Positions 38,640 to 59,246 of a stretch of 64,000 nt of DNA are shown here, in pieces. The translations under genes were made by a program, and so were the position numbers. Origin of the DNA: Halobellus clavatus (GTDB lineage Archaea > Halobacteriota > Halobacteria > Halobacteriales > Haloferacaceae); contig NZ_FNPB01000007.1 of assembly GCF_900107195.1 (NCBI RefSeq), forward strand, positions 62,001-126,000. Direction: 5' to 3'. Position 1 is the stretch's first letter. Each line of letters starts with the position of its first letter. The notes below the pieces were generated by a model. The model saw only the letters and a program-made list of their open reading frames with translations, did no database searches and was not told where the DNA came from.

Positions 38640-39110
38640 ATAAATTATAGTATTAGTCAAATAATGTATACTTCTGGGATAGAAAGTTGGTCGAGAGCGG
38701 TATCGATCGCTGTTGTTAACTTGCCGAGCGAGTCAAAGAAGCGGTTGATAAGAGCCTTTTGCAGCTGTCTCCAGTATGCTTCGACCGGATTCAACTCTGG
38801 TGAATACGGGGGGTAACGTCACGAAGGCAAGGTCGTCACGGGCCGCCAGGTCCGTGACGGCCGAGGCCTGAAAATACGGGGCTCCGTCCAACACGATGAT
38901 CAACTCATCTTCGAATTCTTTACATAATTCTAAAATGAAATTTTTTTTGCGTGTTCGGCCGTGAAGTACTCTTCGAATCGGGAGAAGAAGCGATCACCGG
39001 CCTCGGTAATCGCGCCCAACAGACACGTCCAGTCATATTGCCTTGAGAGTTCGACGGAGGGCCGCGTGCCGCGTGGTTCGCCGGCGCGGAGGGGATCACA
39101 CGTGCCACCC
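38640..39110 (-). pseudogene. IS630-type transposase, C-terminal half, frameshifted
   Basis: On the reverse strand SRQYDWTCLLGAITEAGDRF, then ELIIVLDGAPYFQAS (catalytic Asp) and SPELNPVEAYWRQLQKALIN (catalytic Glu) are in different frames, with poly-A/T runs at the break points (for example aaattttttttgcg near 38938-38950). The N-terminal half and one inverted end are missing. Its upstream end fuses to the FAD dehydrogenase fragment, which it cuts. Confidence 0.8.
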
Positions 39111-39539
39111 CCTTGCTGTGGAAGCCGCCCTTGATGAGTCGGTGTTGACGTAGGTGACGAGTTCTTCGACCTCATCAGGCGTGAGGAGTTCCGCCTCCTC
39201 GCCGAAGGCCTTCGCGGAGCCGACCCGCCGCTTCAGTTCCTTCATCCCCTCTTCGGTCCGGGCAACCTCGATCCCCCCGGAGTTCGTGAAGGCCCCGAAG
39301 TCGCGGTAGATGTCTCGACTCACGGAGGTAATCTGCGTCATATCCTTGCTGTGTTCGACTGATAAGATGAAATTCGAGGCGTGGCCCGTCGAGCCACCGG
39401 GATCCGACAATGGGCCCTTGTCGATCAAGAAAATGTCATCGCATCCGCGTTCGGCTAACTCTCCGGTGAGAGAACTGCCGACGATCCCGGACCCGATGAT
39501 GACGGTACCTACGCTGGATGGAAAGTCGCTATCGCTCAT
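39111..39539 (-). pseudogene. FAD-dependent dehydrogenase (dimethylglycine/sarcosine type), N-terminal fragment
   Basis: The first ~135 residues are intact: VGTVIIGSGIVGSSLTGELA (FAD-binding GxGxxG), DKGPLSDPGGSTGHASNF (equivalent of the GGSTxH flavin site) and LTPDEVEELVTYVNTD. After that a 1-nt shift near 39132-39138 moves the frame; the other frame continues IKGGFHSKG, the expected next motif. Then the IS630-type sequence begins. These oxidoreductases demethylate N-methylglycines to glycine; in this cluster the role would fit sarcosine oxidation. The gene is certainly inactive here. Confidence 0.8.
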
Positions 39540-40366: not shown

Positions 40367-42148
40367 ATGACAATGGATGCCGAAGAAGTAATTCAGGAGC
40401 GAAAAATTGACCCGGTGACTCTACAGGTCATCGGTGGTGAGCTCGATACGATCGCCCAAGAAATGGGACACAAACTGATTCGATCAGCGTACTCGTCGAT
40501 CATTCGCGAAAGCGAGGACATTGGATCTGGTATCCTGACCGCCGAAGGGAAACAGATCGCAGAAGGTGATTTCACCCCGATGCAGGTGGGAACGCTCATC
40601 GCGTCCGTCGAGGGAATGTTCGAAACCTTCGAGGAGCGCGGGCAGAACCCCGACGAGGTCATCAACGAGGGCGACGTATTCATTCACAATCATCCGCATT
40701 ACGGTGCGGCCCATTCGCCCGACATTGCGGTCATCACGCCGGTATTCTACGAAGGAGAACACATTGCGTGGACGGCCACGAACGCACATCACCTCGATAT
40801 CGGTGCGGCGACACCCGGTCTGGCCGTCGATCTTGAGGACGTCTACGCGGAGGGGACGTTATTCAAGGCGACAAAGGTCTACGACCAAGGGGAGCGAGTC
40901 GACGAAATCTGGAATCTGATCGAGGAGAACGTACGGACACCGCGCGTGGTTTTAGGTGACCTTCAGGCACAGATTTCCTCGTGTGAGGTCGGCAAAGAGC
41001 GGTTCCTCGGTCTGGTGGAAGATGAGGGCTACGACCAGATCCTCCAAGCCAGCGAGGACCTGATGCACTACGGCGAATCCTTGATGCGGAAAGAAATTGA
41101 GAAGGTTCCCGACGGGACGTACCACGAGACGGGGTACCTCGACGACGACGGTCGAAACCGTGACGAACGTCTGAAGGTGGATGTAGAGCTCACGGTCGAC
41201 GGCGGTGACCTCACGATAGATCTCAGCGGATCCAACGATGAGGTGATGACCGGATACAACGTTCCGTTCAGAGGATCAGCCGAACCAGCATCGTACTTCA
41301 TCGTTCGAGCGATTCTGACTGATACCGCCACTCACGACGAGTACATCCCCCAGAACTCGGGAACGTTCGAACCGATAAACGTGGAGGCGAGAGAGGGGAG
41401 TCTGTTCAACCCGAGTATGCCCCGGTCAGCGTTCGCGCGAATCAATCAGGTGGACCTCTTAGGCGACCTCATCCTGAAAGCGTTCAGCAACGCGATTCCG
41501 GAGAAGACCTCCGCCGGGTCGGGGCCGCACTGTTACTTCATCAGTTACTCCGGCGTGGACGAAAACGACGAATACTGGGTATACATCGAGGTCAACGAGA
41601 GCGCATACGGTGGACGTCCCGAATCCGACGGACTCGATGCAGTCGACGCACTGGTACACAACACCCAAAATCGGCCAGTCGAAGACATAGAGCTCTCACA
41701 CCCGCTCCGAATCGAGCATTACCGCCTCCGCGAGGAAACGGCGGGCGCCGGCGAACATCGCGGCGGTCACGGTCACGAGCGAATGGTGAAGTTCCTGAGT
41801 GACTCGACGATCACTATCGAAGGAGACGGAAACAAGTACGGATCGTGGGGGTACGACGGCGGCAAGAGAGCGCCGTCCGGAGAACTCAAACACATCAAAC
41901 CCGACGGAGAAGAAATCACGCTACCGTCGAAGGTGTCGGGATACAAGTTCGAGTCCGGAGACAAATTCTCGATCAAGAGCATCAGCGGCGGCGGTTACGG
42001 CGATCCGCACGATCGGCCGGAGCAGAAGGTCTACGATGACTACCGTGACGGATACATCACCAAAGAGACTGCCCGTGAGGAATACGGTGTCGTCATCGAA
42101 GACGGCGGGGTAGACACTGAAGCGACGCAACGCCTGCGAAATAGCTGA
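40367..42148 (+). CDS. hyuB: Hydantoinase B / oxoprolinase subunit (HyuB)
   Basis: 593 residues, full length for HyuB. Typical stretches: VTLQVIGGELDTIAQEMGHK, SIIRESEDIGSGILT, INEGDVFIHNHPHYGAAHSP (metal-binding histidines), ATNAHHLDIG, and C-terminal ETAGAGEHRGGHGHERMVKF and SGGGYGDP. With HyuA it forms the ATP-dependent enzyme that opens hydantoin or 5-oxoproline-like rings. Here HyuB comes before HyuA and is separated from it by two genes. The start follows a TATA-like box by about 30 nt. Confidence 0.93.
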   Translation: MTMDAEEVIQERKIDPVTLQVIGGELDTIAQEMGHKLIRSAYSSIIRESEDIGSGILTAEGKQIAEGDFTPMQVGTLIASVEGMFETFEERGQNPDEVINEGDVFIHNHPHYGAAHSPDIAVITPVFYEGEHIAWTATNAHHLDIGAATPGLAVDLEDVYAEGTLFKATKVYDQGERVDEIWNLIEENVRTPRVVLGDLQAQISSCEVGKERFLGLVEDEGYDQILQASEDLMHYGESLMRKEIEKVPDGTYHETGYLDDDGRNRDERLKVDVELTVDGGDLTIDLSGSNDEVMTGYNVPFRGSAEPASYFIVRAILTDTATHDEYIPQNSGTFEPINVEAREGSLFNPSMPRSAFARINQVDLLGDLILKAFSNAIPEKTSAGSGPHCYFISYSGVDENDEYWVYIEVNESAYGGRPESDGLDAVDALVHNTQNRPVEDIELSHPLRIEHYRLREETAGAGEHRGGHGHERMVKFLSDSTITIEGDGNKYGSWGYDGGKRAPSGELKHIKPDGEEITLPSKVSGYKFESGDKFSIKSISGGGYGDPHDRPEQKVYDDYRDGYITKETAREEYGVVIEDGGVDTEATQRLRNS

Positions 42149-42370: not shown

Positions 42371-42439
42371 ATGCCAGTGTATAGCTGCGTATGCGGAACA
42401 GCCAGTGCTAGTGAGATGACAATTGAGGGAGCAGAATAA
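42371..42439 (+). CDS. 22-codon leader frame with a CxC motif
   Basis: MPVYSCVCGTASASEMTIEG, then AE and TAA; the stop overlaps the amidohydrolase start (TAATG). It begins exactly where the TATA box predicts the transcript start, so ribosomes should load here and re-initiate on the amidohydrolase. The SCVCG motif could bind a metal. Either a coupling leader or the remnant of a zinc-finger micro-protein. Confidence 0.5.
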   Translation: MPVYSCVCGTASASEMTIEGAE

Positions 42440-43611
42440 TGAGCGAATACGAACTGTTACTACACGGAGATGTATGGGACGCAAAGCGTGGACGACAACA
42501 GGAAAAGTGGGTCGCTGTCGAAGACGACACCATCGAAGGAGTGTACGACGACAAGCCCGGATCTGCTGAGACCGTCAAAGAGGTCGAACTTCTCACGCCC
42601 GGACTGATCGACCTCCACGTCCACCTCGTGTGGGACGGTACTGGCGATCCGGTCGAAACCCTCAGGCGACAGTCCGAACAGGAACAGACGATCCACGCCG
42701 TCGCGATGGCCCGCGAACAGGTCGAAGGCGGCGTGACGACCGTCAGAGATATCGGAAGCACACACGACATCGCCATCAGCGTCGCCGACGCCTCCCGTCG
42801 TGGAGACATCACGGGGCCGAGGATCTACGCGAGCGGCCAGACGATCATTATCAGCGGCGGTCACGATCCGTTCTGGGGGATGGAAAGCGACGGAGTCGAC
42901 GCCGTACGCTCCAGCGTTCGAAAGCAGCGCGACAAGGGTGCGCGCGTGATCAAAATCAGTGCAACCGGTGGCGTGTACGGGCAGGCCGTGGGGGAGGATC
43001 CCGGGATGTCGGAACTCTCCCGCGAGGAGGTCATCGCTGCCGTCGAGGAAGCCCACCGGTTCGATATCCCCGTGGCCGTTCACGCCGTCGGGACCGAGGG
43101 GATCGAAAACTCCATCGAGGCGGGCGTAGACACCCTCGAACACGGAAACCTGATGACGAGCGAGAGCCTGGAGCGGATGGTAGAGAAGGATATCGCGTAC
43201 GAACCGACGCTCTACATCTACAAGACCGTGGCCGAAGGGGAGGGAGACATTCCACAGTACGCCTACGAGAACGCACAGCGGGTGTCGGAACGTCACTGGG
43301 AGGTCTTCGAGGAAGCGATCGAAAGCGACGTTCGTATTCTGGCGGGAAGTGACGCCGGATCGCCCAACATTCCGCACCCGGCACTGCACCACGAACTGCG
43401 ATGTCTGGTGGACGGTGGGATGACTGAAAAGCAGGCACTCACCGCCGCAACGAGTACACCTGCAGAAGAGATCGACCGCCCCGAATTGGGCGTCCTAGAG
43501 GAGGGGACTCCGGCGGACATCGTCGGCTTCTCCGACGACCCGTTCGAGGATATCGACGTCACCGGCTCGCCCTCGGTGGTCGTCGCAGACGGAGACGTGG
43601 TGACGGAATAG
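42439..43611 (+). CDS. Metal-dependent amidohydrolase (imidazolonepropionase/prolidase-like)
   Basis: 390 residues, complete. Binuclear metal site residues are visible: His60/His62 (HVH), Lys172 (VIKISATGG, normally carboxylated), His215 (AVHAVG), His235 (LEHGN) and Asp305 (GSDAG). Relatives cleave cyclic amides, N-acyl amino acids or Xaa-Pro/Xaa-Arg dipeptides. Placed between HyuB and HyuA, it probably acts on the same substrate, for example opening or deaminating a ring before or after the ATP-dependent step. The substrate is not fixed by sequence. Confidence 0.9.
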   Translation: MSEYELLLHGDVWDAKRGRQQEKWVAVEDDTIEGVYDDKPGSAETVKEVELLTPGLIDLHVHLVWDGTGDPVETLRRQSEQEQTIHAVAMAREQVEGGVTTVRDIGSTHDIAISVADASRRGDITGPRIYASGQTIIISGGHDPFWGMESDGVDAVRSSVRKQRDKGARVIKISATGGVYGQAVGEDPGMSELSREEVIAAVEEAHRFDIPVAVHAVGTEGIENSIEAGVDTLEHGNLMTSESLERMVEKDIAYEPTLYIYKTVAEGEGDIPQYAYENAQRVSERHWEVFEEAIESDVRILAGSDAGSPNIPHPALHHELRCLVDGGMTEKQALTAATSTPAEEIDRPELGVLEEGTPADIVGFSDDPFEDIDVTGSPSVVVADGDVVTE

Positions 43612-43780
43612 GGAAACCGAGCCTCTCTCGGACTCGGTATCGCCACGTACGTCCGTATCGTCCCGGTAACTTGGATCGGACAATTCGGCGGAAGCGGGTG
43701 GTCGCCGAAACTGATTTTCCGATAGCACCGTTGGCTTGAGCCATAGATTTATTAACCTTGATGTGCCTTGTCATCACAAG

Positions 43781-44644
43781 ATGGCGAGTGCATCCTACAC
43801 AGAGACAGTCAGTGATTGGTCCATAGGTGGGGCCCTACGGTACGGCTACGGAAAATTTTCGTCAGTGACGTCGTTACGTGCTGTTCTCATCGCCTACGCG
43901 ATACTGATTGCCGTGTATATCTACACTCCTATCATCTCGCTCATCGCCTTCTCGTTCAACGAAGGAGGTCTGACTTTCCCGTTTGTCGCTGTCACGACCT
44001 CGTGGTACGCCGAACTGTTCGCAAACGAGGCAGTGATGGCCGCGATCGTGCGATCGCTCAAAGTGGCGCTCGTAGTGACTGTGCTAACGACCGTACTGAG
44101 TACTGCAACGGCGCTCGCGTACCGCTACGAGTTCAGGGGACGGAAGACAATTCTCTACGTGCTTCTGTTGGGAATCATCACACCCGGTATCACGTACGGG
44201 GTCGGCGCGACTTTGTTCTTCAACGAATTACTGGGGTTGGACAAGAGTCTGTGGCTAGCGATTCCGGTTCACGTGGTCTGGGCGCTCCCGTTCGCCGTCA
44301 TCGTACTCCTTGCGGGTATCCCGCCGCATCTAGCCCGTAACGAGCAGGCGGCTCGGGTGATGGGGGCGTCGAACTGGACGGTGTTCCGGGAGGTGATCCT
44401 TCCGCAGATCGGGCCTACTGTACTCGGAGCGGCCGTCTTCGCGTTCACGCTTTCGTATAACGAGGCCACCCGGAGTCTCCTCGTCGTCGGACAGTCAAAC
44501 ACGATGCCCATCCAGATCTTCAGTATCGCGGCTTCGAAGAGAGCGACCCCGGAACTGTTCGCACTCGGCAGTTTCACGACCGTTATGTCGACGCTGTTGC
44601 TCATCGGAGCGAGCCTCTTAATCTTCTATGGCGGTCGTAATTGA
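43781..44644 (+). CDS. ABC importer permease (PotC-like)
   Basis: 287 residues from the ATG at 43781; a TATA-like atttattaac lies about 29 nt upstream, so the longer frame from 43736 is not used. Six transmembrane segments. The cytoplasmic loop has EQAARVMGASNWTVFREVIL then PQIG, the EAA motif that contacts the ATPases. It matches the PotC/YdcV type of the spermidine/putrescine-like family. Its partner permease, binding protein and ATPases are at 49026-53838, so the transporter genes are split by hyuA and the chaperonin. Confidence 0.9.
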   Translation: MASASYTETVSDWSIGGALRYGYGKFSSVTSLRAVLIAYAILIAVYIYTPIISLIAFSFNEGGLTFPFVAVTTSWYAELFANEAVMAAIVRSLKVALVVTVLTTVLSTATALAYRYEFRGRKTILYVLLLGIITPGITYGVGATLFFNELLGLDKSLWLAIPVHVVWALPFAVIVLLAGIPPHLARNEQAARVMGASNWTVFREVILPQIGPTVLGAAVFAFTLSYNEATRSLLVVGQSNTMPIQIFSIAASKRATPELFALGSFTTVMSTLLLIGASLLIFYGGRN

Positions 44645-44766: not shown

Positions 44767-46848
44767 ATGACAGAGAGTACTATTCGCATTGGCGCAGACG
44801 TCGGTGGAACGAACACCGACATCATCCTCGTCGACGGCACTGAAGAGCATACATACAAACTCCCCACGACTGATGACCCCTCGAAATCTACGGCGGACGG
44901 GGTCCTCGAGGTATGTGAACGTGCTGGTATCGCCCCCGAGAAGGTCGACAGCGTCCTGCACGGGACCACGGTGGGGACGAACGCTGTGATAGAGCACGAG
45001 GGTGCGAAAACCGGTATGATAACCACGGAGGGGTTCCGAGACACGATCCATATCGGACGGCACCGGAAGTCCCACACGTTCTCGGTACAGCACGAGATCA
45101 AACATCAATCGGACCCGCTCGTGGACCGTCGCTACCGCAAGACGGTCAACGAACGGATCTATCCGCCGGGGAAAGTCGTCGAGCCGCTAGACGAGTCGGA
45201 GGTTCGTGAAGCGGCCGCGGAACTGGTCGACGAGGGCGTCGAATCCATCGCCGTCTGCTACCTCCACTCGTACCTGAATACGGCACACGAAGACCGTACG
45301 AAGGAGATCATCCAAGAGGAATTCCCGGACGTCTTCGTCTCGACATCCAACGAGGTCGTGGCTCAGTTCCGCGAATACGAGCGCTTCTCGACGACAGCCA
45401 TCAACGCGCGTATTGCTCCGGTGATGTCGAGTTACCTGGACCGGTTACAGGAGCGACTCGACGACTACGGGTTCGAGGGCGCAGACGTACTCATCATGCA
45501 GTCCAACGGCGGAGTAGCGAGTATCAGAGAGGCCAGTCAGCGGCCGGTGACGACGCTCCTCTCGGGGCCCGCAGCGGGTGTGCTTTCCGGACAGTACACC
45601 GGCAAATCGAGCGACGAGGAGAAAATCATCACGTTCGATATGGGCGGCACGAGTGCGGATATTTCCGTCTTGCCCGGACGCCTCCTGGAGCGCGATCCGC
45701 GTGATAGCGAAATCGGCGAGTATCCGGCCATCACCCCGATGCTGGACATCGAGGCCATCGGTAGTGGTGGTGGCTCTATCGCCTGGTTCGATGGGGCACA
45801 GGGCTTCAACGTCGGACCGAAGAGCGCCGGTGCAAACCCCGGTCCCGCGTGTTACGGGCGGGGGAACGACGAACCGACGATTGCCGACGCCCAGGTCGTG
45901 CTCGGACGCATTGATCCGGAAACGTTCCTCGGGGGCGAACTCGACATCGATCCCAACCTCTCCGAGCAGGCGATTCAAGACAAACTCGTCGATGCAGTCG
46001 ATCAAGAGAGATTCAGTACCGTCGAGAAAGCAGCACTTTCCGTACTCGACGTCGCAAACAGCAATATGTACCAGTCGGTTCGCGAGCAGACGATGCAACG
46101 AGGGTATGACCCTCGCGAATACTCGCTCGTCGGATTCGGTGGTGCAGGGCCGATGCACACGGTCGACCTCGCCGAAGAACTCGATATCTCCAAGGTGCTG
46201 ATTCCACCGTCGCCCGGGATCGGCTCCGCACGGGGACTTATGACAGGCGACATTCAGTACGACAACCAGGTTACGCTGAGCAAGCGTCTAGAGAACGTCG
46301 ACGGGGATGAACTCGAAGACCGTATCGAATCGTTGACCCAGCGCGGTGCCGAGCAGCTACGCTCTGACGGAATCGACGTCGAAGAGGACGCGATCTTCCG
46401 GAAGTCAATCGACTGCCTGTACGAAGGACAGGGGTACGAGCTCAACATCGAATACACGGGAACCGACGGCGACTGGCGGTCGCGGATCCGAGACCAGTTC
46501 GAGGAGAAGCACAAACAAGAGTACGGGCACTACTTCGAGAACGACCCCGTCGAAGTCTTGAACCTCCGTGTCGCGGCGTCGGCCAACAGCGTGGAGTACG
46601 ACCCCGTCGAGATCGAAAGCGGATCCGAAGATCCATCTCACGCCGAGACGAAGTCCCATCCGGTCTCCTTCGGAACGTCGCTCGAACCCGAAGAGTACGA
46701 AACACCGAGATACGACCGTGAGGACCTTCGAGCGGGTAACCGAATCGAGGGGCCTGCCATCGTCGACGAATTCGACAGCACTGTAGTCATCAATCCGGAG
46801 TGGGAGGCCGAAGTCCTCCCGAGCGGAGCGCTCCGGATAACCCGTTGA
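44767..46848 (+). CDS. hyuA: Hydantoinase A / oxoprolinase subunit (HyuA)
   Basis: 693 residues, full length. ASKHA-type nucleotide-binding motifs: GADVGGTNTDIILVDG, HGTTVGTNAVIE, FDMGGTSADISVL and IGSGGGSIAW; also PKSAGANPGPACYGRG and GFGGAGPMH. The usual GGTFTD is GGTNTD here. HyuA activates the ring amide with ATP while HyuB completes the site; known reactions are 5-oxoproline, N-methylhydantoin and acetone/acetophenone-type carboxylation. A TATA-like aaatttatta (about 44714-44723) gives a leader of roughly 20 nt. Confidence 0.93.
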   Translation: MTESTIRIGADVGGTNTDIILVDGTEEHTYKLPTTDDPSKSTADGVLEVCERAGIAPEKVDSVLHGTTVGTNAVIEHEGAKTGMITTEGFRDTIHIGRHRKSHTFSVQHEIKHQSDPLVDRRYRKTVNERIYPPGKVVEPLDESEVREAAAELVDEGVESIAVCYLHSYLNTAHEDRTKEIIQEEFPDVFVSTSNEVVAQFREYERFSTTAINARIAPVMSSYLDRLQERLDDYGFEGADVLIMQSNGGVASIREASQRPVTTLLSGPAAGVLSGQYTGKSSDEEKIITFDMGGTSADISVLPGRLLERDPRDSEIGEYPAITPMLDIEAIGSGGGSIAWFDGAQGFNVGPKSAGANPGPACYGRGNDEPTIADAQVVLGRIDPETFLGGELDIDPNLSEQAIQDKLVDAVDQERFSTVEKAALSVLDVANSNMYQSVREQTMQRGYDPREYSLVGFGGAGPMHTVDLAEELDISKVLIPPSPGIGSARGLMTGDIQYDNQVTLSKRLENVDGDELEDRIESLTQRGAEQLRSDGIDVEEDAIFRKSIDCLYEGQGYELNIEYTGTDGDWRSRIRDQFEEKHKQEYGHYFENDPVEVLNLRVAASANSVEYDPVEIESGSEDPSHAETKSHPVSFGTSLEPEEYETPRYDREDLRAGNRIEGPAIVDEFDSTVVINPEWEAEVLPSGALRITR

Positions 46849-47132: not shown

Positions 47133-47218
47133 CGCTCTTTTGCTTCGGCGGAGGACCCATCGTCCGTTTGGCCAGCCAAAGATTTATTCCTCTGTACCGA
47201 GGGGTACCACTCGTGTAG

Positions 47219-48973
47219 ATGGAGTCGAACCCCACAGTCCAGTCAGGAGGCCGTCCCGACGATGCCGAACACTCGATCACGTTCCCCCACGCGAATATCA
47301 CGGCCATCGACGCGATATCGGGGGTGTTCAGATCGACAGTCGGCCCACAGTCTATGGACGTACTGCTGCTCGATACACCTTCGACGGGGACCGGCGGCGA
47401 CACGGAATTGGAAGTCGACGACTACGCTGTAACCGGGGATGGTGCACACCTCCTGCAGTCGCTTTCGATACAACATCCGGTCGGTGAGCTACTAGAGCGC
47501 TCTATCGGACCGTACCGACCGGGTGATACAGACATCGATGGGAAGGACATCTTTGACGGCGTCAGCTCGAAGGTCCTCTTTGCGAACGCGCTGCTCACGA
47601 ATTCCATCGATCTACTGGAACAGGGAGTGCACCCCCAAGAAATCGTCAGTGGCTTCAAATCAAGTCTGAAAGTCGCAGAGGATACGCTTCGTTCGTCCTG
47701 CATCACCCCTGAAGGGAACCAGGGAGGTACTGCCGCTGACGCGGCCCGGACAGCACTCACGGGGAACGATTTCGGAAAGATGCGGGACGAGATCGCGGAT
47801 CTCGCTGCTGCTGCCGCCGAAGAGATCGGTGAGCCGAACGAGCGAACGTTCGACGTCACGACGGTGAGACACGGATCGATACGCGACAGTCGGTTGATCG
47901 AAGGGACCGTCCTGGACCGGAATACTGTGGTTCGTCAGGATATGCCTCGACGTGTCGATGATGCGAGTGTACTGTTGCTGGGGGGACACGATCAGGGTGG
48001 GTTACAGGATCCGGACATCGTGGACGACTTCGAGGTCGAACTGGAGTCGCCGGAAACGATCGGCACCTTCGAACGAATGGCAGCAAACCAGCGACGGGAC
48101 CTCGTCGATCAGATTGTCCAGGCCGGTACCGACGTCGTAGTCACGCAGATGGGGATAAACAGTCACTATCAGCAGTTGTTGGCTGATCACGGGATTATGG
48201 CGATTCGGCGCGTCCATCCTCGCAATCTACAGCGACTGTCTTTGTCGACTGGAGCGAATGTCGTGAAAGCCAACCACGACGTCGACTCGAAACATCTCGG
48301 CCGCTGCGACACCGTCGTGGAGCGGGAAATCGAACAGCGAAAGCACCGTCGAAAGCACAGGCGCATCGTCATTTTCGAGGGTTGTACCGATCCCGATTCA
48401 GTCACGATGCTCTTGTGTGGGACGTTCGGACCGCTCGAATCGCAAGTGCCGCGCCAAGTCCGAAAAGCGGTGCTGGCGGCCGCACAATCGACGAGAGACG
48501 GGCCTTCGGAAGGCGTCGTTCCAGGCGGCGGAGCCACAGAAATGGCGATCGCACGCCGAATTAAACGTGAGGCAAAGACGCACGACTCGAAAAGCCAGCT
48601 CGCGATGAACGAGTACGCCTCAGCTCTCGAAAGTCTAGTAGAGTCGCTCGTCGCCAACGCCGGGATGGATCCGCTTGCCACTGTCGCAGATCTCCGAAGA
48701 GCGAATCGAACGGACTCGAACGTCGGCGTCGTTCTTCCCGAGGGGGACATCACCGATACGCTTGAAGCCGGGGTCGTCGATACGATTCCGACGAAAAAGA
48801 ACGTCTACAGGAGTGGTACCGACCTAGCGGCGTTAGTACTTCGTGTCGATGATGCCATAGATGCCACGTTCGAGGGGAACACGGTGGATACGGGCGACGC
48901 AATCTACCAGGAGCCGGCGGAGCAACATCAGGAACACGTCGAAGAAACCGGTTCCCCGACTGTCTGGGAATGA
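47219..48973 (+). CDS. Highly divergent group II chaperonin (thermosome/TCP-1 paralogue)
   Basis: 584 residues, length and order of a thermosome subunit: ITAIDAISGVFRSTVGPQSM at the N-terminus, VTGDGAHLL (71-79, usual NDGATIL), GVHPQEIVSGF, VPGGGATEMAIARR (434-447), NAGMDPL and EAGVVDT...LRVDDAI at the end. ATPase residues are changed: GDGTTT is FDGVSS (112-117), and the catalytic Asp of the helix before the VPGGGA loop is Lys416 (RKAV). It may bind but hardly hydrolyse ATP, or act inside mixed rings with the normal thermosome. Its place between hyuA and the transporter suggests a dedicated folding factor. TATA at 47182-47188. Confidence 0.88.
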   Translation: MESNPTVQSGGRPDDAEHSITFPHANITAIDAISGVFRSTVGPQSMDVLLLDTPSTGTGGDTELEVDDYAVTGDGAHLLQSLSIQHPVGELLERSIGPYRPGDTDIDGKDIFDGVSSKVLFANALLTNSIDLLEQGVHPQEIVSGFKSSLKVAEDTLRSSCITPEGNQGGTAADAARTALTGNDFGKMRDEIADLAAAAAEEIGEPNERTFDVTTVRHGSIRDSRLIEGTVLDRNTVVRQDMPRRVDDASVLLLGGHDQGGLQDPDIVDDFEVELESPETIGTFERMAANQRRDLVDQIVQAGTDVVVTQMGINSHYQQLLADHGIMAIRRVHPRNLQRLSLSTGANVVKANHDVDSKHLGRCDTVVEREIEQRKHRRKHRRIVIFEGCTDPDSVTMLLCGTFGPLESQVPRQVRKAVLAAAQSTRDGPSEGVVPGGGATEMAIARRIKREAKTHDSKSQLAMNEYASALESLVESLVANAGMDPLATVADLRRANRTDSNVGVVLPEGDITDTLEAGVVDTIPTKKNVYRSGTDLAALVLRVDDAIDATFEGNTVDTGDAIYQEPAEQHQEHVEETGSPTVWE

Positions 48974-49025: not shown

Positions 49026-49898
49026 CTAGCCACGGGCAAGTTCTGTAATATCCACTCTGCGAAGAGAGAGATAGACGATCCCGAATATGACGATCAGCAG
49101 CATAAGCGAGAGCGCAGATGCGGCGGGATAGTCGAGTCCTTGGTTCACTGTCGTATAAATTAGCGTAGAAACCGTGCTGCTCCCGCCACTGAGGAACTGC
49201 GGAACAGCGAAATTGCCGATCGAAAGGACAAACACGAAGATCGCTCCGATCACGACGCCCGGGAGGCTGAGTGGCCAAGTCACGTTTTTGAACGTCGCTA
49301 TCGGACTGCCTCGCAGCGTTTCCGAAGCATCCAGTAATCCCTCATCCACCTGTGTGAGAGCGATGTAGATCGGAGCAGCCATAAAAACCACGTAGTTCTG
49401 TAAGTATCCCAGAATCTGGGAGACAGGTGAGAAGAGTAGCCAAGAGAGCGGTTGGTCGATTAAACCTGCCAGTAATAGCAGCTGATTGATCACGCCCTCC
49501 TTTCCGAGAACCGGAATCCACCCCAGGGTTCGAATAACCCCCGACGTCCAAAACGGGATGATGAGGAACAGTAACAGAATGATTCCGCCATTCTGACTGG
49601 TATGGAACCGAAGGTAGTACGCCAGCGGATACCCGAAGACGAGAGTGATGAGCGTCACAACCGCTCCGGTGAATAGCGTCTCGACGAGTACTTGACGGAT
49701 CGTATCAGACGTGATGACGCTGATCCAGGGCTTAAGCGTGAAGGTATGCTCTATCGAGAACGAACTGTAGGTGAGGAAACTGTAGTAACTGATGACTCCG
49801 AGCGGGATAAGGAGGAATACGCCGAACCAGAGCACCGAGGGCCCAGCCAGGAGGTACGATTCGTGGATCGATATGGAATCACGTGATATCTTTTTCAT
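49026..49898 (-). CDS. ABC importer permease (PotB-like)
   Basis: 290 residues, six transmembrane segments. N-terminal SYLLAGPSVLWFGVFLLIPL and the loop ETLRGSPIATFKNVTWPLSL (EAA motif) place it with PotB-type permeases. It follows the binding-protein gene in the same direction (40-nt gap), forming one transcript divergent from the ATPases. With the PotC-like protein at 43781 it should form the heterodimeric channel. Confidence 0.9.
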   Translation of the reverse strand: MKKISRDSISIHESYLLAGPSVLWFGVFLLIPLGVISYYSFLTYSSFSIEHTFTLKPWISVITSDTIRQVLVETLFTGAVVTLITLVFGYPLAYYLRFHTSQNGGIILLLFLIIPFWTSGVIRTLGWIPVLGKEGVINQLLLLAGLIDQPLSWLLFSPVSQILGYLQNYVVFMAAPIYIALTQVDEGLLDASETLRGSPIATFKNVTWPLSLPGVVIGAIFVFVLSIGNFAVPQFLSGGSSTVSTLIYTTVNQGLDYPAASALSLMLLIVIFGIVYLSLRRVDITELARG

Positions 49899-49937: not shown

Positions 49938-51311
49938 TTACGCACTCTGGAAGTCCCGCCAGCGGTCCAGCATATATTCCGCATTATCGGGCCAGATCTG
50001 GAAGAACCCGATACGGTCGATTCGCTCCTCGATCGAACCGCAGTCCCTCTTTTGACCGTCGGATGCGGGCGTGCCCTCTTCAGATGACCAGTCGTACGAT
50101 TGGGGGTCGAACAGCGCCGGGTCATCGATCGATTCGTAGGTCCGTTTGCCTTCGTAGGCCCAGTCATAGTATTCGGGACCCATCCCCTCTCCGCTGCTGT
50201 CGGACCCGTCACGAACCAGTTCCTTGTTCGGGTAGTGCGGGACTGAGTATCCCCAGTTTTGTATGTATCCTGGGAACCACGCGCCGAGGTGGACATCGTT
50301 GTACAGAGAGTGGACGCCCTCGAGATTATTCCGATCGGACGCCCCCGGTTTGAGCGGTGCCATCCCAACGTACCAGAACCGATAGCCCTGTGTCCCTTCG
50401 CTCATCGTCGCGTACTCACACGGCGTACCAGAACGGCGGACGTCGAGGGCTGCCGGCTGCCAAAGGTCACCGAGGACTGCCTCCTCGCCGGCCATCAAAT
50501 TGACCGAGTTACCGTAGGCGGTCCACGTCGATCTGAACTGTCCGTTCGACTTCTGTTCGACCAGATAATCGATAACCGTGTCGAGTTGGTCCTCCGTGGG
50601 GTTGTTTAGCTTGCCGACTGATCCGTCGATCTGATCGTTGTCGAGGAGGTGCATCATCGTCTGCGGAATCTGGATGGGGGCAGCACCGTTGACGAGCACC
50701 TCACCCTCGTATTGGTCGTCGAACAATGCGCTCCACTTCGATACGTCGTCGACATACTTCGGGTTGTAGCCAATCGCGTCGAAGTTATACGCGTACGGCG
50801 GGAGCCGAAGGGTGCCCTCTGACTTGCTCTCCCACACCTCCTGATCGATCGTCTCCGTCTGTTCTTCCAACTGCGGAATCCGCTCGCTGGGGTTCAAAAA
50901 GAGATCCGAGATGGCGCTTTCCGACCAGTTATCCAGATCGGCCGTGTCTAACTCGTGGCTGGCATCGTTATCCACAGTAAGAGCCGATGCGGTCGAGGTG
51001 TCCAACGAGAACACGTCCATCGATTCCCGCCCTCCACTCAGGACCTGTTGCTGAACAGTCGCTCCGGTAGCCGTGGTCAATTCTATTTCGTTCCCGGTCA
51101 CCTCTGTGTACTTTTCACCCTGACCGTCTCTGACCCCGTAGGCGGGGCCAATCCATTGGAGTGATGAGCCGCTACTACTGGTCCCCCCTTGATCACCCTC
51201 ACTGTCGGTACTGTCCTGGCCATCGCCACCAAAACAACCGCTCAGTCCAGCTGTGGCTGCAGCCGCGCTACTGTACTTGACAAAGTTTCGCCTGCTGAGT
51301 GCTTCTCGCAT
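49938..51311 (-). CDS. TAT-exported lipoprotein substrate-binding protein (PotD-like)
   Basis: 457 residues from the ATG at 51311. The signal has twin arginines (LSRRNFVKYSSAAAATAGLS) ending in a lipobox SGCFGG, then a Gly/Ser/Asp-rich linker, as in haloarchaeal TAT lipoproteins. The body matches periplasmic binding proteins of the spermidine/putrescine-ABC group. The TATA box at 51340-51351 puts the transcript start near 51318, downstream of the alternative ATG at 51326, which decides the start. It captures the substrate outside the membrane; ligand unknown. Confidence 0.9.
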   Translation of the reverse strand: MREALSRRNFVKYSSAAAATAGLSGCFGGDGQDSTDSEGDQGGTSSSGSSLQWIGPAYGVRDGQGEKYTEVTGNEIELTTATGATVQQQVLSGGRESMDVFSLDTSTASALTVDNDASHELDTADLDNWSESAISDLFLNPSERIPQLEEQTETIDQEVWESKSEGTLRLPPYAYNFDAIGYNPKYVDDVSKWSALFDDQYEGEVLVNGAAPIQIPQTMMHLLDNDQIDGSVGKLNNPTEDQLDTVIDYLVEQKSNGQFRSTWTAYGNSVNLMAGEEAVLGDLWQPAALDVRRSGTPCEYATMSEGTQGYRFWYVGMAPLKPGASDRNNLEGVHSLYNDVHLGAWFPGYIQNWGYSVPHYPNKELVRDGSDSSGEGMGPEYYDWAYEGKRTYESIDDPALFDPQSYDWSSEEGTPASDGQKRDCGSIEERIDRIGFFQIWPDNAEYMLDRWRDFQSA

Positions 51312-51339
51312 GGCTTCCCCTAACACATTTCATTCGAGG

Positions 51340-51508: not shown

Positions 51509-52651
51509 ATGGCGGATCAATCAGTGATCAGCATAGATTCGTTGCGTAAGCAGTTCGCCGACGAACTCGTCTTGGATCGCATCGATCTCTCGATTAACGA
51601 CGGGGAGTTCTGCGTAGTAATCGGGCCCAGCGGCTGTGGAAAGAGCACCTTGTTGAAATGCATCGCCGGGGTTACAGATCCGGATTCGGGAGAGATACAT
51701 CTCCGTGGGAAGAATGCTGAAGCCACACCCGCCAGAAACCGAAATATCGGTCTCGTGTTTCAGGAGTTCGAGGAAACCCTGTTCCCACACAAAACCGTCG
51801 AGGAGAACATCGCCTTCGGTCTCAAACAGAAGGCAGAACCGCCATCGGAAGACCAGATCGGAGACCAAATCGACGAAATGCTCGACCTACTCGCGATTTC
51901 GCACACCAAGTCGAGTTATCCAGACGAGCTAAGTGGCGGGCAACAACAGCGCGTCGAGTTGGCCCGTCAACTCGTTCGCGACTGTGATATCACGTTGTTT
52001 GACGATCCACTAGCGGATCTGGACTACAAACTCCAGAAACGGATGGAGATCGAAATGCGGAGACTGCACAAAGAGCTGGAGAGCACGTTTTTATACGTGA
52101 CGCACAACCAGGATCAGGCACTGAAACTCGCGGACAGACTGATCGTGATGAACGACGGTGTCATAGAACAGATCGGGACGCCCGAGGAAGTGTACACGAA
52201 TCCAGCGAACGCGTTTGTCGGCCGATTTGTGGGGGATTCCAATCTTCTGACGGGCAACGTGGTACAGAGGGCCGATTCAGAAATACGGGTCGAAACGCCA
52301 GTTGGCGAACTCGGCGTCTCGAACGACGGAGACCAGCCAGCGATGGATTCCGAGGGGGTCGTACTAATTCGACCGGAAGATATCGGTATCGGAGACGGCG
52401 CTGCGAGATATCGAAACGAGGTGGACGTCGTCCTCGAAGGAAAGACGTACACTGGAGAGATCACCGAGTATTCGGTCTCGGCATCCGGACACAGAGACGA
52501 ACTACAAGTCGTAAAGCCCGGCAAACCGGACAAGATAGGCGATAAGAAGGAGACGAAGATTGGCTTCGATCCAGACGCGGCCCAGTTCTTCGAAGAGATA
52601 AGCGTCACCGGAGAGATGCAAGTCAGTGATCTGTTAGAGGCAGAACAATGA
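51509..52651 (+). CDS. ABC importer ATPase 1 (PotA-like, Walker B Glu replaced by Asp)
   Basis: 380 residues. Walker A GPSGCGKST (39-47), Q-loop Gln85, signature LSGGQ (141-145), H-loop His199 and a C-terminal TOBE-like domain. The Walker B end reads LFDDPLADLD: Asp165-Asp166 where the catalytic Glu is normally second. Its partner at 52648 has the Glu but an altered signature. The two genes overlap by 4 nt (ATGA), so equal amounts are expected, and they should form a heterodimer under the two permeases. Confidence 0.92.
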   Translation: MADQSVISIDSLRKQFADELVLDRIDLSINDGEFCVVIGPSGCGKSTLLKCIAGVTDPDSGEIHLRGKNAEATPARNRNIGLVFQEFEETLFPHKTVEENIAFGLKQKAEPPSEDQIGDQIDEMLDLLAISHTKSSYPDELSGGQQQRVELARQLVRDCDITLFDDPLADLDYKLQKRMEIEMRRLHKELESTFLYVTHNQDQALKLADRLIVMNDGVIEQIGTPEEVYTNPANAFVGRFVGDSNLLTGNVVQRADSEIRVETPVGELGVSNDGDQPAMDSEGVVLIRPEDIGIGDGAARYRNEVDVVLEGKTYTGEITEYSVSASGHRDELQVVKPGKPDKIGDKKETKIGFDPDAAQFFEEISVTGEMQVSDLLEAEQ

Positions 52652-53838
52652 ACGAAACAAGCGACCTGTCGACCCAGTCCGAACAACCAGAACAAACCGA
52701 GTCCAGAGGAACCATGCTCGACGTTTCCGGACTCACCAAAATATACCCCGACGGGACACTCGCAGTCGATGGTATCGACTTCACTGTCGACGCCGGCGAC
52801 TTTTGTGTCATTATCGGCCCGAGCGGCTGTGGGAAATCGACGACGCTTCACTCACTCGTCGGCAACCTCGACGTGACGTCTGGGACAATAAGTCTCGACG
52901 GGACTGACATCACCGACCAGCCCACACATACTCGGGACATCGGCCTCGTCTTCCAAGATTTCCAGCTCTTTCCGCACCTTACTGTCGCAGAGAACATCGT
53001 GTACGGCCTGGAGCAAATGGGCCTCGACGACCAAGAGAAACGCCGACGGACGGAACGCCTCTTGGAGATGATGCAGTTGGAGGAACTCGCTGATCGCGAT
53101 CCGGAGGAACTCTCAGCGGGTCAAAAACAGCGGGTAGCGCTTGCACGGAGTCTCGTCCTCGAGCCCAAACTACTGCTGTTGGACGAGCCGCTGGGAGATA
53201 TGGATTACAAACTACAAAAGCGAATGGAACGGGAATTACTTCGCATCCACAGAGAGTTCGATACGACCTTTATATATGTCACACACGACCAGACGCAGGC
53301 GATGAGGCTCGCTGATCAAATTATCGTAATGAACGACGGGCAGGTGGAACAATCCGGTTCGGTTGCGGAGATCTATAATTCACCGAATACCGCTTTCGTC
53401 TCGGCGTTTGTGGGGGATTCGAATACGTTCACCGGAACGCTTGAGAAGGAAACCACCGACAGCAGCGTAACCATCAATACCGAACTCGGCTCGTTCACAG
53501 CCTCACCTGATAATCTCCATTCGCCCATCAGTGAGGTTATTGAATCTGAAATGTCTTTTTTGGTTCGACCGCAGCATCTGGAACTCTCCGATGAACACGA
53601 AAATACGCTCGAATGCGCGGTACAAGACGTGATTTGGAACCCTGGGTCGAGTACGCAGGTGTTGTTGGATGTACGAAGGGACGATGCCAGCAAGGAACTT
53701 CGTCTGAAGTCGTGGGAGTTGTCCACCGTTCCGGAGGGAGATGTACGAGTGAGTTGGAAGCCGGAACACACGATCCTCCTCGAGCAGACGAGCGTGGTAG
53801 AGGGAATCGATCTGGAGAAGGACATACTGGGTAGTTAA
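52648..53838 (+). CDS. ABC importer ATPase 2 (PotA-like, altered signature LSAGQ)
   Basis: 396 residues. Walker A GPSGCGKST (57-65), Q-loop in VFQDFQLFPH, Walker B LLLLDEPLGD with catalytic Glu180, H-loop VTHDQ, and a C-terminal regulatory domain. The signature is LSAGQ (155-159) instead of LSGGQ. Combined with the first ATPase, one composite site (this Walker B plus LSGGQ) is canonical and the other (Asp166 plus LSAGQ) is degenerate. The N-terminal 20 residues are polar and lack homology. Confidence 0.92.
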   Translation: MNETSDLSTQSEQPEQTESRGTMLDVSGLTKIYPDGTLAVDGIDFTVDAGDFCVIIGPSGCGKSTTLHSLVGNLDVTSGTISLDGTDITDQPTHTRDIGLVFQDFQLFPHLTVAENIVYGLEQMGLDDQEKRRRTERLLEMMQLEELADRDPEELSAGQKQRVALARSLVLEPKLLLLDEPLGDMDYKLQKRMERELLRIHREFDTTFIYVTHDQTQAMRLADQIIVMNDGQVEQSGSVAEIYNSPNTAFVSAFVGDSNTFTGTLEKETTDSSVTINTELGSFTASPDNLHSPISEVIESEMSFLVRPQHLELSDEHENTLECAVQDVIWNPGSSTQVLLDVRRDDASKELRLKSWELSTVPEGDVRVSWKPEHTILLEQTSVVEGIDLEKDILGS

Positions 53839-53878: not shown

Positions 53879-54688
53879 TTAGTAGTTGATCTGTTCGTTT
53901 TTCATCGTCTGAATGTTGACTTCGATGACGTTCGCAGCGCTGGTGACGAGAGCAGGGACTCTCTCGTGAAATTCGTCCCCTTGCAGCCTGCTCGTCGGTT
54001 TAGTGAGACTTATGGCTCCGATTACAGTCTCGTTTTCATCCAAAATTGGAGCGCCCACCGCCCGAGTACCAAATATTTCCTCTTCATCGTTCTGTGCGTA
54101 CCCCTGTTCTCGGATCGTTTCTAATTCGTCGAAGAGCTTGTTTCTGGAAGTTATTGTTTTTTCAGTTCGCTGTGGGAGTCCCGATTTCTCAATGATCTCT
54201 TCTACACGAGCCTCCGGAAGATATGCTAGCATAGCCTTTCCGTACGCCGAACTGTGTAAATACCCCGTTTGCTCCAGTTTTTTTTCGAAATACTCTTTAC
54301 CCACAGCATTCTGCCCACGAACCTCGTGCAGGTAAATGAGTTCTCCGTGTTCCTCGGTGACCAGATGAACGTATTCGTCGGTTTCTTCAGCCAACCGCTC
54401 GACTTCGGATCGCCCTGCTTTGAAGAGGACGTTGTTTCGTTTCACGAACTCCCCGAGACTCAGAAAGTGAAGTCCTAGATGGTATTTTTCGTCCTGTTTG
54501 ACCACGTACTTTTGCTCCACCAGCGTAGCAAGGTGGGTGTAGACCGTTCCTTTTGGCATATCGAGGTGGTTCGCTAACTCTGTAACGCCCGCTCCCTGCA
54601 GCTTTTCCAGCGTGTGAATTATCTCCCAGCTGGTCGCAACGGTTTTCATCGTCCGTGGTGAGGATGGTTTCGTCATTTGCAAACGCAT
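53879..54688 (-). CDS. IclR family transcriptional regulator
   Basis: 269 residues. N-terminal winged helix (SWEIIHTLEKLQGAGVTELA, MPKGTVYTHLATLVEQKYVV) and the IclR effector domain (SAYGKAMLAYLPEARVEEII, RTEKTITSRNKLFDELETIR, GAPILDENETVIGAISL). An AT-rich box (about 54708-54718) predicts a transcript start at 54688, supporting this ATG over the one at 54676. Convergent with the ATPase genes, it most likely controls the transporter/hydantoinase genes. A second IclR gene lies at 56499. Confidence 0.9.
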   Translation of the reverse strand: MRLQMTKPSSPRTMKTVATSWEIIHTLEKLQGAGVTELANHLDMPKGTVYTHLATLVEQKYVVKQDEKYHLGLHFLSLGEFVKRNNVLFKAGRSEVERLAEETDEYVHLVTEEHGELIYLHEVRGQNAVGKEYFEKKLEQTGYLHSSAYGKAMLAYLPEARVEEIIEKSGLPQRTEKTITSRNKLFDELETIREQGYAQNDEEEIFGTRAVGAPILDENETVIGAISLTKPTSRLQGDEFHERVPALVTSAANVIEVNIQTMKNEQINY

Positions 54689-55739: not shown

Positions 55740-56423
55740 ATGCAATACCCATCAGTGCAAGAAATCGTGAAGAGCGTCCTGACGGACCCGTTTGCGGGGA
55801 TGAACACGATCGGACTGGTCGCGTTCGCCTTCGTCGGGTCCGTAAAGGCGATACGCGAACAGTTTGACCTGTTTGGAGTAGCCGTCGTCGGTCTCGCGAC
55901 TGCCTTTGTTGGCGGGACGACCCGCGACGTTCTCGTCAACCGAGTTCCGCTGTCGTTGAGCTCACTCGGCGAGATAAGCCTCGGAATACTTGGCGTGGTT
56001 CTCGCGGTCGGATTGAACATCGTCCTCAACTCCCCGGACGATCATCCGGTGACGATGCTCGCAGACGCCGTCGGACTTGGTGCCTTCGCGACCGCGGGCG
56101 CGATCGTGTCGACGCAGGCCGGTCTCTCGAGTTTCGGAGTGGTCGCGATCGCCACGATCAACGCAGCCGGCGGTGGGGCGTTCGCGGATCTTCTGTTGGA
56201 TCGATCTCCGTTTATTCTCGTGACAGACTTCTACGCCAGTTGTGCGGTGCTGGGCAGTTGCACCTACTGGGTCGTTACGACTGCGCTTACAACTGACGGC
56301 ATCGCTGCGGCACTCTGTGCGGCAGTTACCGTCGGGACGCGATTGGCCGCGGTCAACCGCGGCTGGGAACTCCCGACTGCCCAATCACTGGAGGAACTAC
56401 TGCTCAGATTCGACGGCGATTGA
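55740..56423 (+). CDS. UPF0126 membrane protein (glycine-transporter family)
   Basis: 227 residues, seven membrane segments made of two repeated UPF0126 units: GLVAFAFVGSVKAIREQFDL with GGTTRDVLVNRVP, and GLGAFATAGAIVSTQ with AAGGGAFADLLLDRSP. Databases label the family trimeric intracellular cation channel-like; some bacterial members have been assigned glycine uptake from mutant phenotypes (PF03458). Located next to an IclR gene and the glycine cleavage operon, a glycine-transport role is attractive here. Confidence 0.85.
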   Translation: MQYPSVQEIVKSVLTDPFAGMNTIGLVAFAFVGSVKAIREQFDLFGVAVVGLATAFVGGTTRDVLVNRVPLSLSSLGEISLGILGVVLAVGLNIVLNSPDDHPVTMLADAVGLGAFATAGAIVSTQAGLSSFGVVAIATINAAGGGAFADLLLDRSPFILVTDFYASCAVLGSCTYWVVTTALTTDGIAAALCAAVTVGTRLAAVNRGWELPTAQSLEELLLRFDGD

Positions 56424-57245: not shown

Positions 57246-57701
57246 AGTCGAGTGTTTGCGAGGAGGATTTATAAATATTCACGAGAGGCGAATTTTAACC
57301 GCGCTTCGGAGCCTGATTCCGGGAAACGGTGGGCCTCCACGTACCAGAGAATTGTATTCTCATCGCCAGCCGTTCGATAAATTCCCGATTGGATTGCTAC
57401 TCGGGAATTAGACCGGAATGTACGCATTCTCGATTTCGCAGAAGCGAAATCCGTCTCGGGAGCAACGAACCGGAGGCAAACGACCGGGGGGCGCTCGAAC
57501 CGCTATCTGAGTCAAATATACCTCCAAACGCGCTGAAAGCGCGTATCTGGTGCAGTCGCCGAACCTAGTCGTTCGATACTGGCGCAGGCGGGGGCTATCT
57601 CTCTGCGACTGGCATTCACACATAGCGAAATAGTGCGAAACAGAATAAAACGTTCAGGTAATTATCTGAGTAAAAAACGCATAAATACTTGCAGTTGTAT
57701 A
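57246..57701. other. Divergent regulatory region iclR/gcvT
   Basis: 456 bases. Short frames (57329-57568, 57408-57623) look random. AT-rich boxes at 57262-57275 (for iclR) and 57668-57688 (for gcvT) are the likely promoters. No recognised glycine riboswitch fold; hairpins such as cgctgaaagcg (57530-57540) are short. Confidence 0.45.
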
Positions 57702-58808
57702 ATGAAGGTTGTGTCATCCAAACGAACACCGCTGTATGAATCTCACTCTCGGGCGGGAGCAGACTTCACTGACTTCGGCGGGTGGGAGATGCCGGTCTCG
57801 TTCGACTCCATCCAGGAGGAACACCGGGCCGTTCGAGACGACGTCGGGCTGTTCGACGTGAGTCATATGGGACAGATCGCTGTCGACGGGGGCGAAGCAC
57901 AGACGTTGTTGCAGCAGCTCACCCCGAGTGACATACGAAGTCTCGATCCAGGCGAGGCACTATACTCGTGTTTTCTCCAGGCTGACGGCATCATACTCGA
58001 CGACATCGTCGTATACGATCACCCGGAGGCCAGCGAGTACGTCGTCGTTCCGAACGCCGGACACGACGAGGAGCTGGATGATCAACTGCGCGAGTACGCC
58101 GACGGCTGGGACCTCGACGTCTCCCTCGAGAACCGAACGACGGAGACCGGAATGATCGCGGTACAGGGGCCCGAAGCCGTAGACCGGGTTGCCGAAGCGG
58201 CAGATAAACGGATCGAAGAGTTGGATCCGTTCACCGTGACGGAGACATCGCTCGGCGACGTCGAGTGTCTCGTGGCCCGCACGGGATACACCGGTGAGGA
58301 CGGCGTCGAGATCCTGTTTTCCGGAAGCGATGCCGAAGAGATCGATCGGCTGTTCGACGACGTTCAGCGCTGTGGGCTCGGAGCCAGGGACACGCTCCGA
58401 CTCGAAGCTGGACTGTTGCTCTCCGGACAGGACTTCGACCCGGAGGGCGAACCGCACGACCCCTTCGAGGCCGGTATCGGATTCGTCGTCGATTTCGACG
58501 ACGGAGACTTCGTCGGCCGGTCGGCCCTGGAACAAGTCCGAGACGACGGGGTCGACGAACGGATCGTCGGACTGCGCCTCGAGGAGCGAGCGATTGCCCG
58601 CCACGGATACGATATGCTCTCCGACGGCGCCCCTATCGGTCGGGTGACGAGCGGGACGATGAGTCCCACGCTCGGAATCCCGATCGCCCTCGGATACGTC
58701 GACGCCGAGTACGCCGATCCCGGCACCGAAATCGCCGTGTCGGTCCGCAACCGGTCCGTCGACGCGACCGTCGTCGACACGCCGTTCCTCGAGTCGTGTG
58801 GCGAGTGA
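57702..58808 (+). CDS. gcvT: Glycine cleavage T-protein (aminomethyltransferase)
   Basis: 368 residues from the ATG at 57702, which follows an AT-rich promoter; the frame to 57633 adds 23 unlikely residues. MKVVSSKRTPLYESHSRAGA, FDVSHMGQIAV, LARTGYTGEDGVEILF-type folate-binding motif and the C-terminal VTSGTMSPTLG are diagnostic. It transfers the methylene group from aminomethyl-lipoyl H-protein to tetrahydrofolate, releasing ammonia. First gene of a five-gene operon. Confidence 0.95.
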   Translation: MKVVSSKRTPLYESHSRAGADFTDFGGWEMPVSFDSIQEEHRAVRDDVGLFDVSHMGQIAVDGGEAQTLLQQLTPSDIRSLDPGEALYSCFLQADGIILDDIVVYDHPEASEYVVVPNAGHDEELDDQLREYADGWDLDVSLENRTTETGMIAVQGPEAVDRVAEAADKRIEELDPFTVTETSLGDVECLVARTGYTGEDGVEILFSGSDAEEIDRLFDDVQRCGLGARDTLRLEAGLLLSGQDFDPEGEPHDPFEAGIGFVVDFDDGDFVGRSALEQVRDDGVDERIVGLRLEERAIARHGYDMLSDGAPIGRVTSGTMSPTLGIPIALGYVDAEYADPGTEIAVSVRNRSVDATVVDTPFLESCGE

Positions 58809-58866
58809 CACACACTGAACCGACAGCGACGATGACGAACGACGCACACAGCAAACCCAAGAACCG

Positions 58867-59241
58867 ATGACGTACGAGACACCCGACGACTTACAGTACA
58901 CCGACTCACACGAATGGATCGACGACAGAGAGGACGTCCTGCGGGTCGGGATCACCGACTTCGCACAGGACGAACTCGGTGATGTCGTCTTCGTCGAACT
59001 ACCGGACGTGGGCGAGGCCCTCGACCGCGATGCGGCCTGCGCCGTCGTCGAGAGCATCAAAGCGGTCTCGGACATCTACTCCCCAGTCTCGGGGACGGTG
59101 ACCGCGACCAACGACGCCGTTGTCGACCGGCCGGAACTGCTCAACACCGATCCGTACGGCGAGGGCTGGCTCTTCGAGATCGACGGAGCGGTACCGGACG
59201 ACGCGCTAGACGCGGACGAATATCGCGAGCAGATCGAATAA
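58867..59241 (+). CDS. gcvH: Glycine cleavage H-protein
   Basis: 124 residues. Lipoylated Lys65 lies in [10 protein letters not shown]; start YTDSHEWID is typical. H-protein carries the aminomethyl group between P, T and L proteins. A 12-codon frame (58832-58870, [12 protein letters not shown]) ends over its start as ATGA and may couple translation. 5 nt before gcvPA. Confidence 0.95.
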
Positions 59242-59246
59242 CGACA

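Follow-up and report, generated by a model that had tools for sequence, protein, structure and literature searches.

A divergent, importer-linked group II chaperonin in Halobellus clavatus and other haloarchaea

Introduction

Chaperonins are usually regarded as generalist housekeeping machines. In vertebrates, BBS6/MKKS, BBS10 and BBS12 are divergent, group II-like chaperonins in which the residues for hydrolysis are degraded and the Gly-Pro motif is retained (PMC2846930), and they are needed together with CCT/TRiC to assemble a single membrane-trafficking complex, the BBSome (PMC7018513). MimG, a chaperonin-like protein, is required for active expression of the mycobacterial monooxygenase MimABCD, according to work cited in PMC7570240. 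Extra group II chaperonins are also known from archaea, Methanosarcina acetivorans having five such genes (PMC5220055). In the open-access literature we found no account of haloarchaeal chaperonins linked to importers, hydantoinases or formamidases, an absence that is not in itself proof of novelty.

Here we describe a chaperonin encoded in a 64,000-nucleotide stretch of the Halobellus clavatus genome (contig NZ_FNPB01000007.1, positions 62,001 to 126,000; hereafter the window), and the clade to which it belongs. The window chaperonin shares with the archaeal thermosomes (MmCpn, haloarchaeal CCT1-3) the chaperonin fold, an unbroken alignment, the Gly-Pro motif and two pocket Asp residues, but it has lost the hydrolytic Asp and the sensing Lys, has insertions specific to its clade, scores below the NCBIfam cut-offs and is linked to an importer. 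The combination of lost hydrolysis residues and a kept Gly-Pro appears from alignment to be common to this clade and BBS6, BBS10 and BBS12; the latter are eukaryotic and have an established client, the BBSome, whereas the client of the window clade is one that we infer from linkage. Like MimG, the clade represents a chaperonin tied to one partner, although MimG is GroEL-like (group I) rather than group II and its partner is an enzyme. The extra genes of M. acetivorans are comparable as an expansion of archaeal group II chaperonins.

Results

A full-length chaperonin with an altered nucleotide pocket

The chaperonin gene of the window is an intact open reading frame with an ATG start that encodes 584 residues, and the genome has two ordinary thermosome genes besides it. 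The Pfam domain Cpn60_TCP1 spans the protein with 330.8 bits (profile positions 1-488 of 490), bearing out the initial annotation of a full-length thermosome-like protein. The NCBIfam thermosome models give 317, 314 and 311 bits against curated cut-offs of 450, 400 and 671, respectively, so that none of the cut-offs (400-671) expected of a functional thermosome is reached. Alignment with solved chaperonins, which had been proposed as a check, is unbroken over residues 26-550 and runs through the apical region of 9rwp and 3j1e, indicating at the sequence level a built-in lid that needs no GroES. An AF2 model made from a 21-sequence alignment has a pLDDT of 71 and a pTM of 0.57, with low confidence in its N-terminal part (pLDDT below 50 at residues 1-20, 40-86 and 98-111); its Foldseek matches are chaperonins, the best in the PDB being MmCpn 5w79 (TM 0.63/0.70). 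We therefore class the protein, by its sequence, as a full-length divergent group II chaperonin.

The pocket residues were numbered on an MmCpn sequence of 543 residues, equal in length to the PDB chains, in which D386 and K161 fall as expected. Both of the altered ATPase sites that the initial annotation had pointed out are present: residues 112-117 read FDGVSS, with V115 aligned to MmCpn T93, and Lys416 takes the place of the hydrolytic Asp (MmCpn D386). A third change, which it had not listed, is Asn183 at the position of MmCpn K161, which we take to be the nucleotide-sensing (gamma-phosphate-sensing) Lys. The protein keeps the equivalents of MmCpn D60 and D91 and the nucleotide-loop Gly-Pro. 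With both the hydrolytic Asp and the gamma-phosphate-sensing Lys gone, normal ATP hydrolysis is probably impossible; nucleotide binding is probably still present, since the Gly-Pro loop and the two acidic residues are kept. How the nucleotide-sensing loop takes part in recognising the gamma-phosphate is set out in PMC8346469, which gives no K161 by name.

The gene had been placed between hyuA and the transporter (Table 1). hyuA does lie upstream, separated from the chaperonin by a small zinc-ribbon-like reading frame that occurs at Halobellus-type loci only, but the transporter genes flank the chaperonin on both sides, with potC upstream of hyuA and potB and the gene for the substrate-binding protein (SBP) downstream. 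The conserved TATA-like element upstream of the chaperonin suggests that it is transcribed from its own promoter. Elsewhere in the window, a gene for an FAD-dependent oxidoreductase (DAO; 39096-39539, minus strand) has only residues 1-134 of the 381 left, and the full 381-residue gene is found at the corresponding place in L036 and in the G118 locus. Two IS605 OrfB/TnpB-like genes (4197-5435 and 34434-35747, both minus strand) encode a Cas12f1-like domain. A gcvT-like gene, followed by genes for GcvH and two GcvP-type glycine-cleavage proteins (57633-62056, plus strand), lies near a gene with a 'Glycine transporter' (PF03458) domain (55740-56423).

Table 1. Features of the chaperonin cluster in the window, with the survey loci of two further kinds of accessory chaperonin
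Feature	Position or loci	Strand	Basis and remarks
HyuB (hydantoinase B/oxoprolinase family)	40367..42148	+	Pfam, NCBIfam
Amidohydrolase	42439..43611	+	Closest NCBIfam model Xaa-Pro dipeptidase, below cut-off
PotC-like ABC importer permease	43736..44644	+	Pfam, NCBIfam; in 22/22 loci
HyuA (hydantoinase/oxoprolinase)	44767..46848	+	Best NCBIfam model caprolactamase alpha, below cut-off
CxxC zinc-ribbon-like ORF, 61 aa	46947..47132	+	TFIIB zinc-binding model, sub-threshold
TATA-like element AAA-G/C-ATTTATT	47165..47190 (approximate)	+	Conserved at four orthologous loci
Divergent group II chaperonin, 584 aa, predicted hydrolysis-defective	47219..48973	+	Pfam, alignments
PotB-like ABC importer permease	49026..49898	-	Pfam, NCBIfam; in 22/22 loci
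Tat-signal substrate-binding protein (SBP) of importer	49938..51326	-	Pfam, NCBIfam
Importer ATPase 1, PotA-like	51509..52651	+	Pfam, NCBIfam
Importer ATPase 2, PotA-like	52648..53838	+	Similarity to ATPase 1 and matching gene at other loci
IclR-family regulator, ends cluster	53879..54688	-	Pfam, NCBIfam
Formamidase-linked chaperonin loci	L138, L139, L141-L147, L149-L152, L211-L214		
Oppositely oriented chaperonin pairs beside sugar-type ABC importers	L133, L161, L162, L165-L167, L169-L172		

The importer is the constant partner of the clade

The window chaperonin and its relatives, which are 39-79% identical to it, form one clade of 22 sequences with a support of 1.0, and ordinary thermosomes stand apart at ~33%. 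The clade was found only in haloarchaea: 19 of 391 genomes from the class, in 9 genera, carry it, and it is also present at eleven named genome-collection loci and on several plasmids. A profile search of a phylum-wide sample of 295 genomes found it nowhere except in the window's own genome.

We mapped the neighbourhoods of 22 window-clade loci, the fetched flanks being 10 kb on each side for Halorussus and ~7 and 10 kb for Haladaptatus. At all 22, genes for PotC, PotB, the SBP and one or more ABC ATPases lie within ~22 kb of the chaperonin; there are two ATPase genes per locus, except in the divergent member G064, where one was detected and where the importer is only 37-51% identical. The chaperonin sits directly between potC and potB at nine loci. 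Which gene is nearest to the chaperonin differs between clades: it is a permease gene in most loci of the window clade, the SBP gene in the sugar-type loci described below and an ATPase gene in L158 and L160. The window SBP and the chaperonin occur in an identical set of genomes (19/391), and the same linkage is seen on annotated haloarchaeal plasmids. This identical distribution, together with the presence of importer genes at every locus, makes the importer the partner that does not vary; HyuAB is a frequent companion. It is the SBP family of the window that has such a chaperonin; not every importer does.

The initial annotation had proposed a factor for the assembly of HyuAB, a large enzyme, and the neighbourhood search that was to accompany it, carried out across haloarchaea, did find HyuAB to be frequent: it is within the fetched DNA at 17 of the 22 loci, and hyuA is just upstream of the chaperonin both at Halobellus-type loci and in G064, where this arrangement holds despite a very different HyuAB (35%/26%). 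What it did not find was constancy. HyuAB is not in the fetched DNA at five loci (G325, G345, G348, Halorussus and Haladaptatus); in G345 there is a HyuA on the same contig, ~24 kb from the chaperonin. The Haloarcula litorea annotation has no hyuAB closer than 15 kb to the chaperonin; at ~17 kb there is a HyuA of a generic kind (43% identity). The occurrence of the clade apart from hyuAB, which had been named beforehand as a refutation, is thus partly observed. HyuA itself is found in 368 of the 391 genomes, and among the matches listed, HyuA of at least 47% identity, related to the subclades linked with the chaperonin, occurs in 22 genomes, 18 with the chaperonin and four without it (G234, G370, G397 and G314). 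The HyuA of the chaperonin-free G234 is, at 68%, the closest outside the genus among the matches listed; the reverse is seen in G348, which has the chaperonin and a best HyuA of only 42%. The exceptions therefore run in both directions, and the chaperonin's own promoter element speaks against simple read-through from hyuA. The part of the proposal that stands is that of a specialised, non-housekeeping paralogue: a dedicated chaperonin is likely. The phyletic profile and the neighbourhoods rule out HyuAB as a constant partner and do not support it as the specific client, and a factor dedicated to HyuAB is, in our estimate, unlikely.

Other accessory chaperonins have genomic partners of their own

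We surveyed 35 haloarchaeal genomes, chosen mostly for their extra chaperonins, taking as chaperonins the best matches listed and covering the ~8 kb that flank each gene on either side, for accessory and ordinary chaperonins alike. Among the matches listed, and with the window and formamidase-linked clades set aside, ABC-importer genes of any kind lie near 22 of 25 accessory loci vs 3 of 38 thermosome loci (Fisher p 8e-11), and permease or SBP genes alone lie near 20 of 25 vs 0 of 38 (p 4e-12), both comparisons using loci that are uncorrected for relatedness and not phylogenetically independent, and clades delimited with the data already in view. The thermosome controls rule out proximity to importers as a general trait of chaperonins.

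Two chaperonin genes in opposite orientation stand beside sugar-type ABC importers (Table 1). In the sampled set, the catalytic residue is S, A or R in the subunit that usually adjoins the SBP and D in the other, except in L133 (N). At the same position, Q, N or A is found in the remaining importer-linked clades, with D retained in L154 and L156. L136 and L137, near the start and the end of contig 3 of G388, hold the same pair with the same scores and are perhaps an assembly overlap.

A further clade of 17 chaperonins has an acetamidase/formamidase gene within ~3 kb at all 17 loci, and such a gene is near none of the 63 other loci of the survey, in both cases among the matches listed. These loci mostly have no importer match, which favours the idea that the window chaperonin serves the cytoplasmic catabolic enzymes of its module and that the importer is a co-inherited passenger. 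The enzymes of the window clade vary between loci, however, while the importer is constant, and at the sugar-type loci the SBP and permease are kept in 11 of 12, compared with 9 of 12 for the best-kept gene that is neither chaperonin nor importer. We hold this explanation to be improbable, to the same degree as the one centred on HyuAB.

The pocket is altered and conserved

Position 416 is K in 20 and Q in 2 of the 22 clade members and D in 36 of 36 ordinary thermosomes, and position 183 is N in all 22 and K in all 36. Changes fixed across a clade in this way are not due to chance. At fifty positions, at least 90% of the members agree on a residue other than that of the thermosome majority; these positions take in a clade-specific insertion at 97-104 (P98, R100, P101, G102, T104), which immediately precedes the DGV motif. 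Because of these kept positions, the insertion included, the nucleotide pocket of the clade looks to have been altered and then conserved, rather than merely to have decayed.

Apical and equatorial divergence stand in a ratio of 0.97 in the window clade, as opposed to 1.48 in CCT1, 2.04 in CCT2 and 1.71 in CCT3, and constraint on the ATPase domain has therefore loosened in comparison with the apical domain, which binds the client. By this measure, selection has moved away from the former and toward the latter. A protein that no longer folds anything, and in which the chaperonin fold serves as a nucleotide- or metabolite-responsive scaffold or regulator, would fit the loss of the hydrolysis and sensing residues and the new conserved insertion beside the pocket motif. 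An apical client-binding domain conserved as well as the equatorial domain, and the unbroken alignment to solved chaperonins, argue against it, and we consider it quite unlikely.

Between the window and its congeners, the dN/dS of the chaperonin is 0.15-0.18, which denotes purifying selection. The clade's reading frames are intact at every locus except one, L041 (G027), where frameshifts split the genes for the chaperonin, the amidohydrolase, the importer ATPase and PotB, owing to sequencing error or to a dying locus. That the gene is a thermosome copy decaying in a mobile island is very improbable, even though several loci are on plasmids and the dN/dS is the highest of the six cluster genes compared (hyuA and hyuB, 0.02-0.05), for it is contradicted by a dN/dS far below 1 and by the clade-fixed residues, as well as by the intact frames and the fifty kept positions.

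Discussion

The reading that we lean toward, as somewhat the better bet, is that of a hydrolysis-defective, client-dedicated chaperonin that is accessory to one ABC importer module, made up of the SBP, the PotB- and PotC-like permeases and the PotA-like ATPases. It adds a putative chaperone activity, nucleotide binding and a putative client to what was computed, namely the linkage, the clade, the residue losses, the insertion and the purifying selection. The chaperonin would bind nucleotide without normal hydrolysis and would act as a holdase or assembly chaperonin dedicated to a component of the importer or to the import-plus-catabolism module as a whole. It could do so in rings of its own, but joint action with active thermosome subunits, which would provide hydrolysis, is more likely; mixed rings with the housekeeping thermosome, which the initial annotation had also considered, are possible. 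In the sugar-type pairs, the partner that keeps its Asp may supply the ATPase cycle. Because HyuAB is also frequent at the chaperonin loci, the client may be among the catabolic enzymes, and the co-occurrence of chaperonin and importer would equally be expected from a linked accessory island whose products have no physical contact.

The nearest functional parallel of the window clade would be BBS6, BBS10 and BBS12; by analogy it may work as they do, and it is no member of that family. On a wider scale, it is an even call whether a set of partner-dedicated group II chaperonins has arisen within the haloarchaea, comprising at least five importer-linked clades and one formamidase-linked clade, several of them Asp-less and some made up of pairs in which one subunit lacks the Asp and the other keeps it. 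These would be a prokaryotic counterpart of the BBS proteins, with thermosome-like rings tuned by specialised subunits to single membrane importers or enzymes.

Genes of this kind are now labelled as thermosome subunits or left unexplained, an annotation that is corrected here. If the reading is true, a set of natural Asp-less subunits, each with a single importer or enzyme as its partner, would reveal how a folding ring turns client-specific. They would also provide archaeal models of the BBS-type arrangement that are simple and amenable to genetics, the partner of each clade being suggested by the genome itself.
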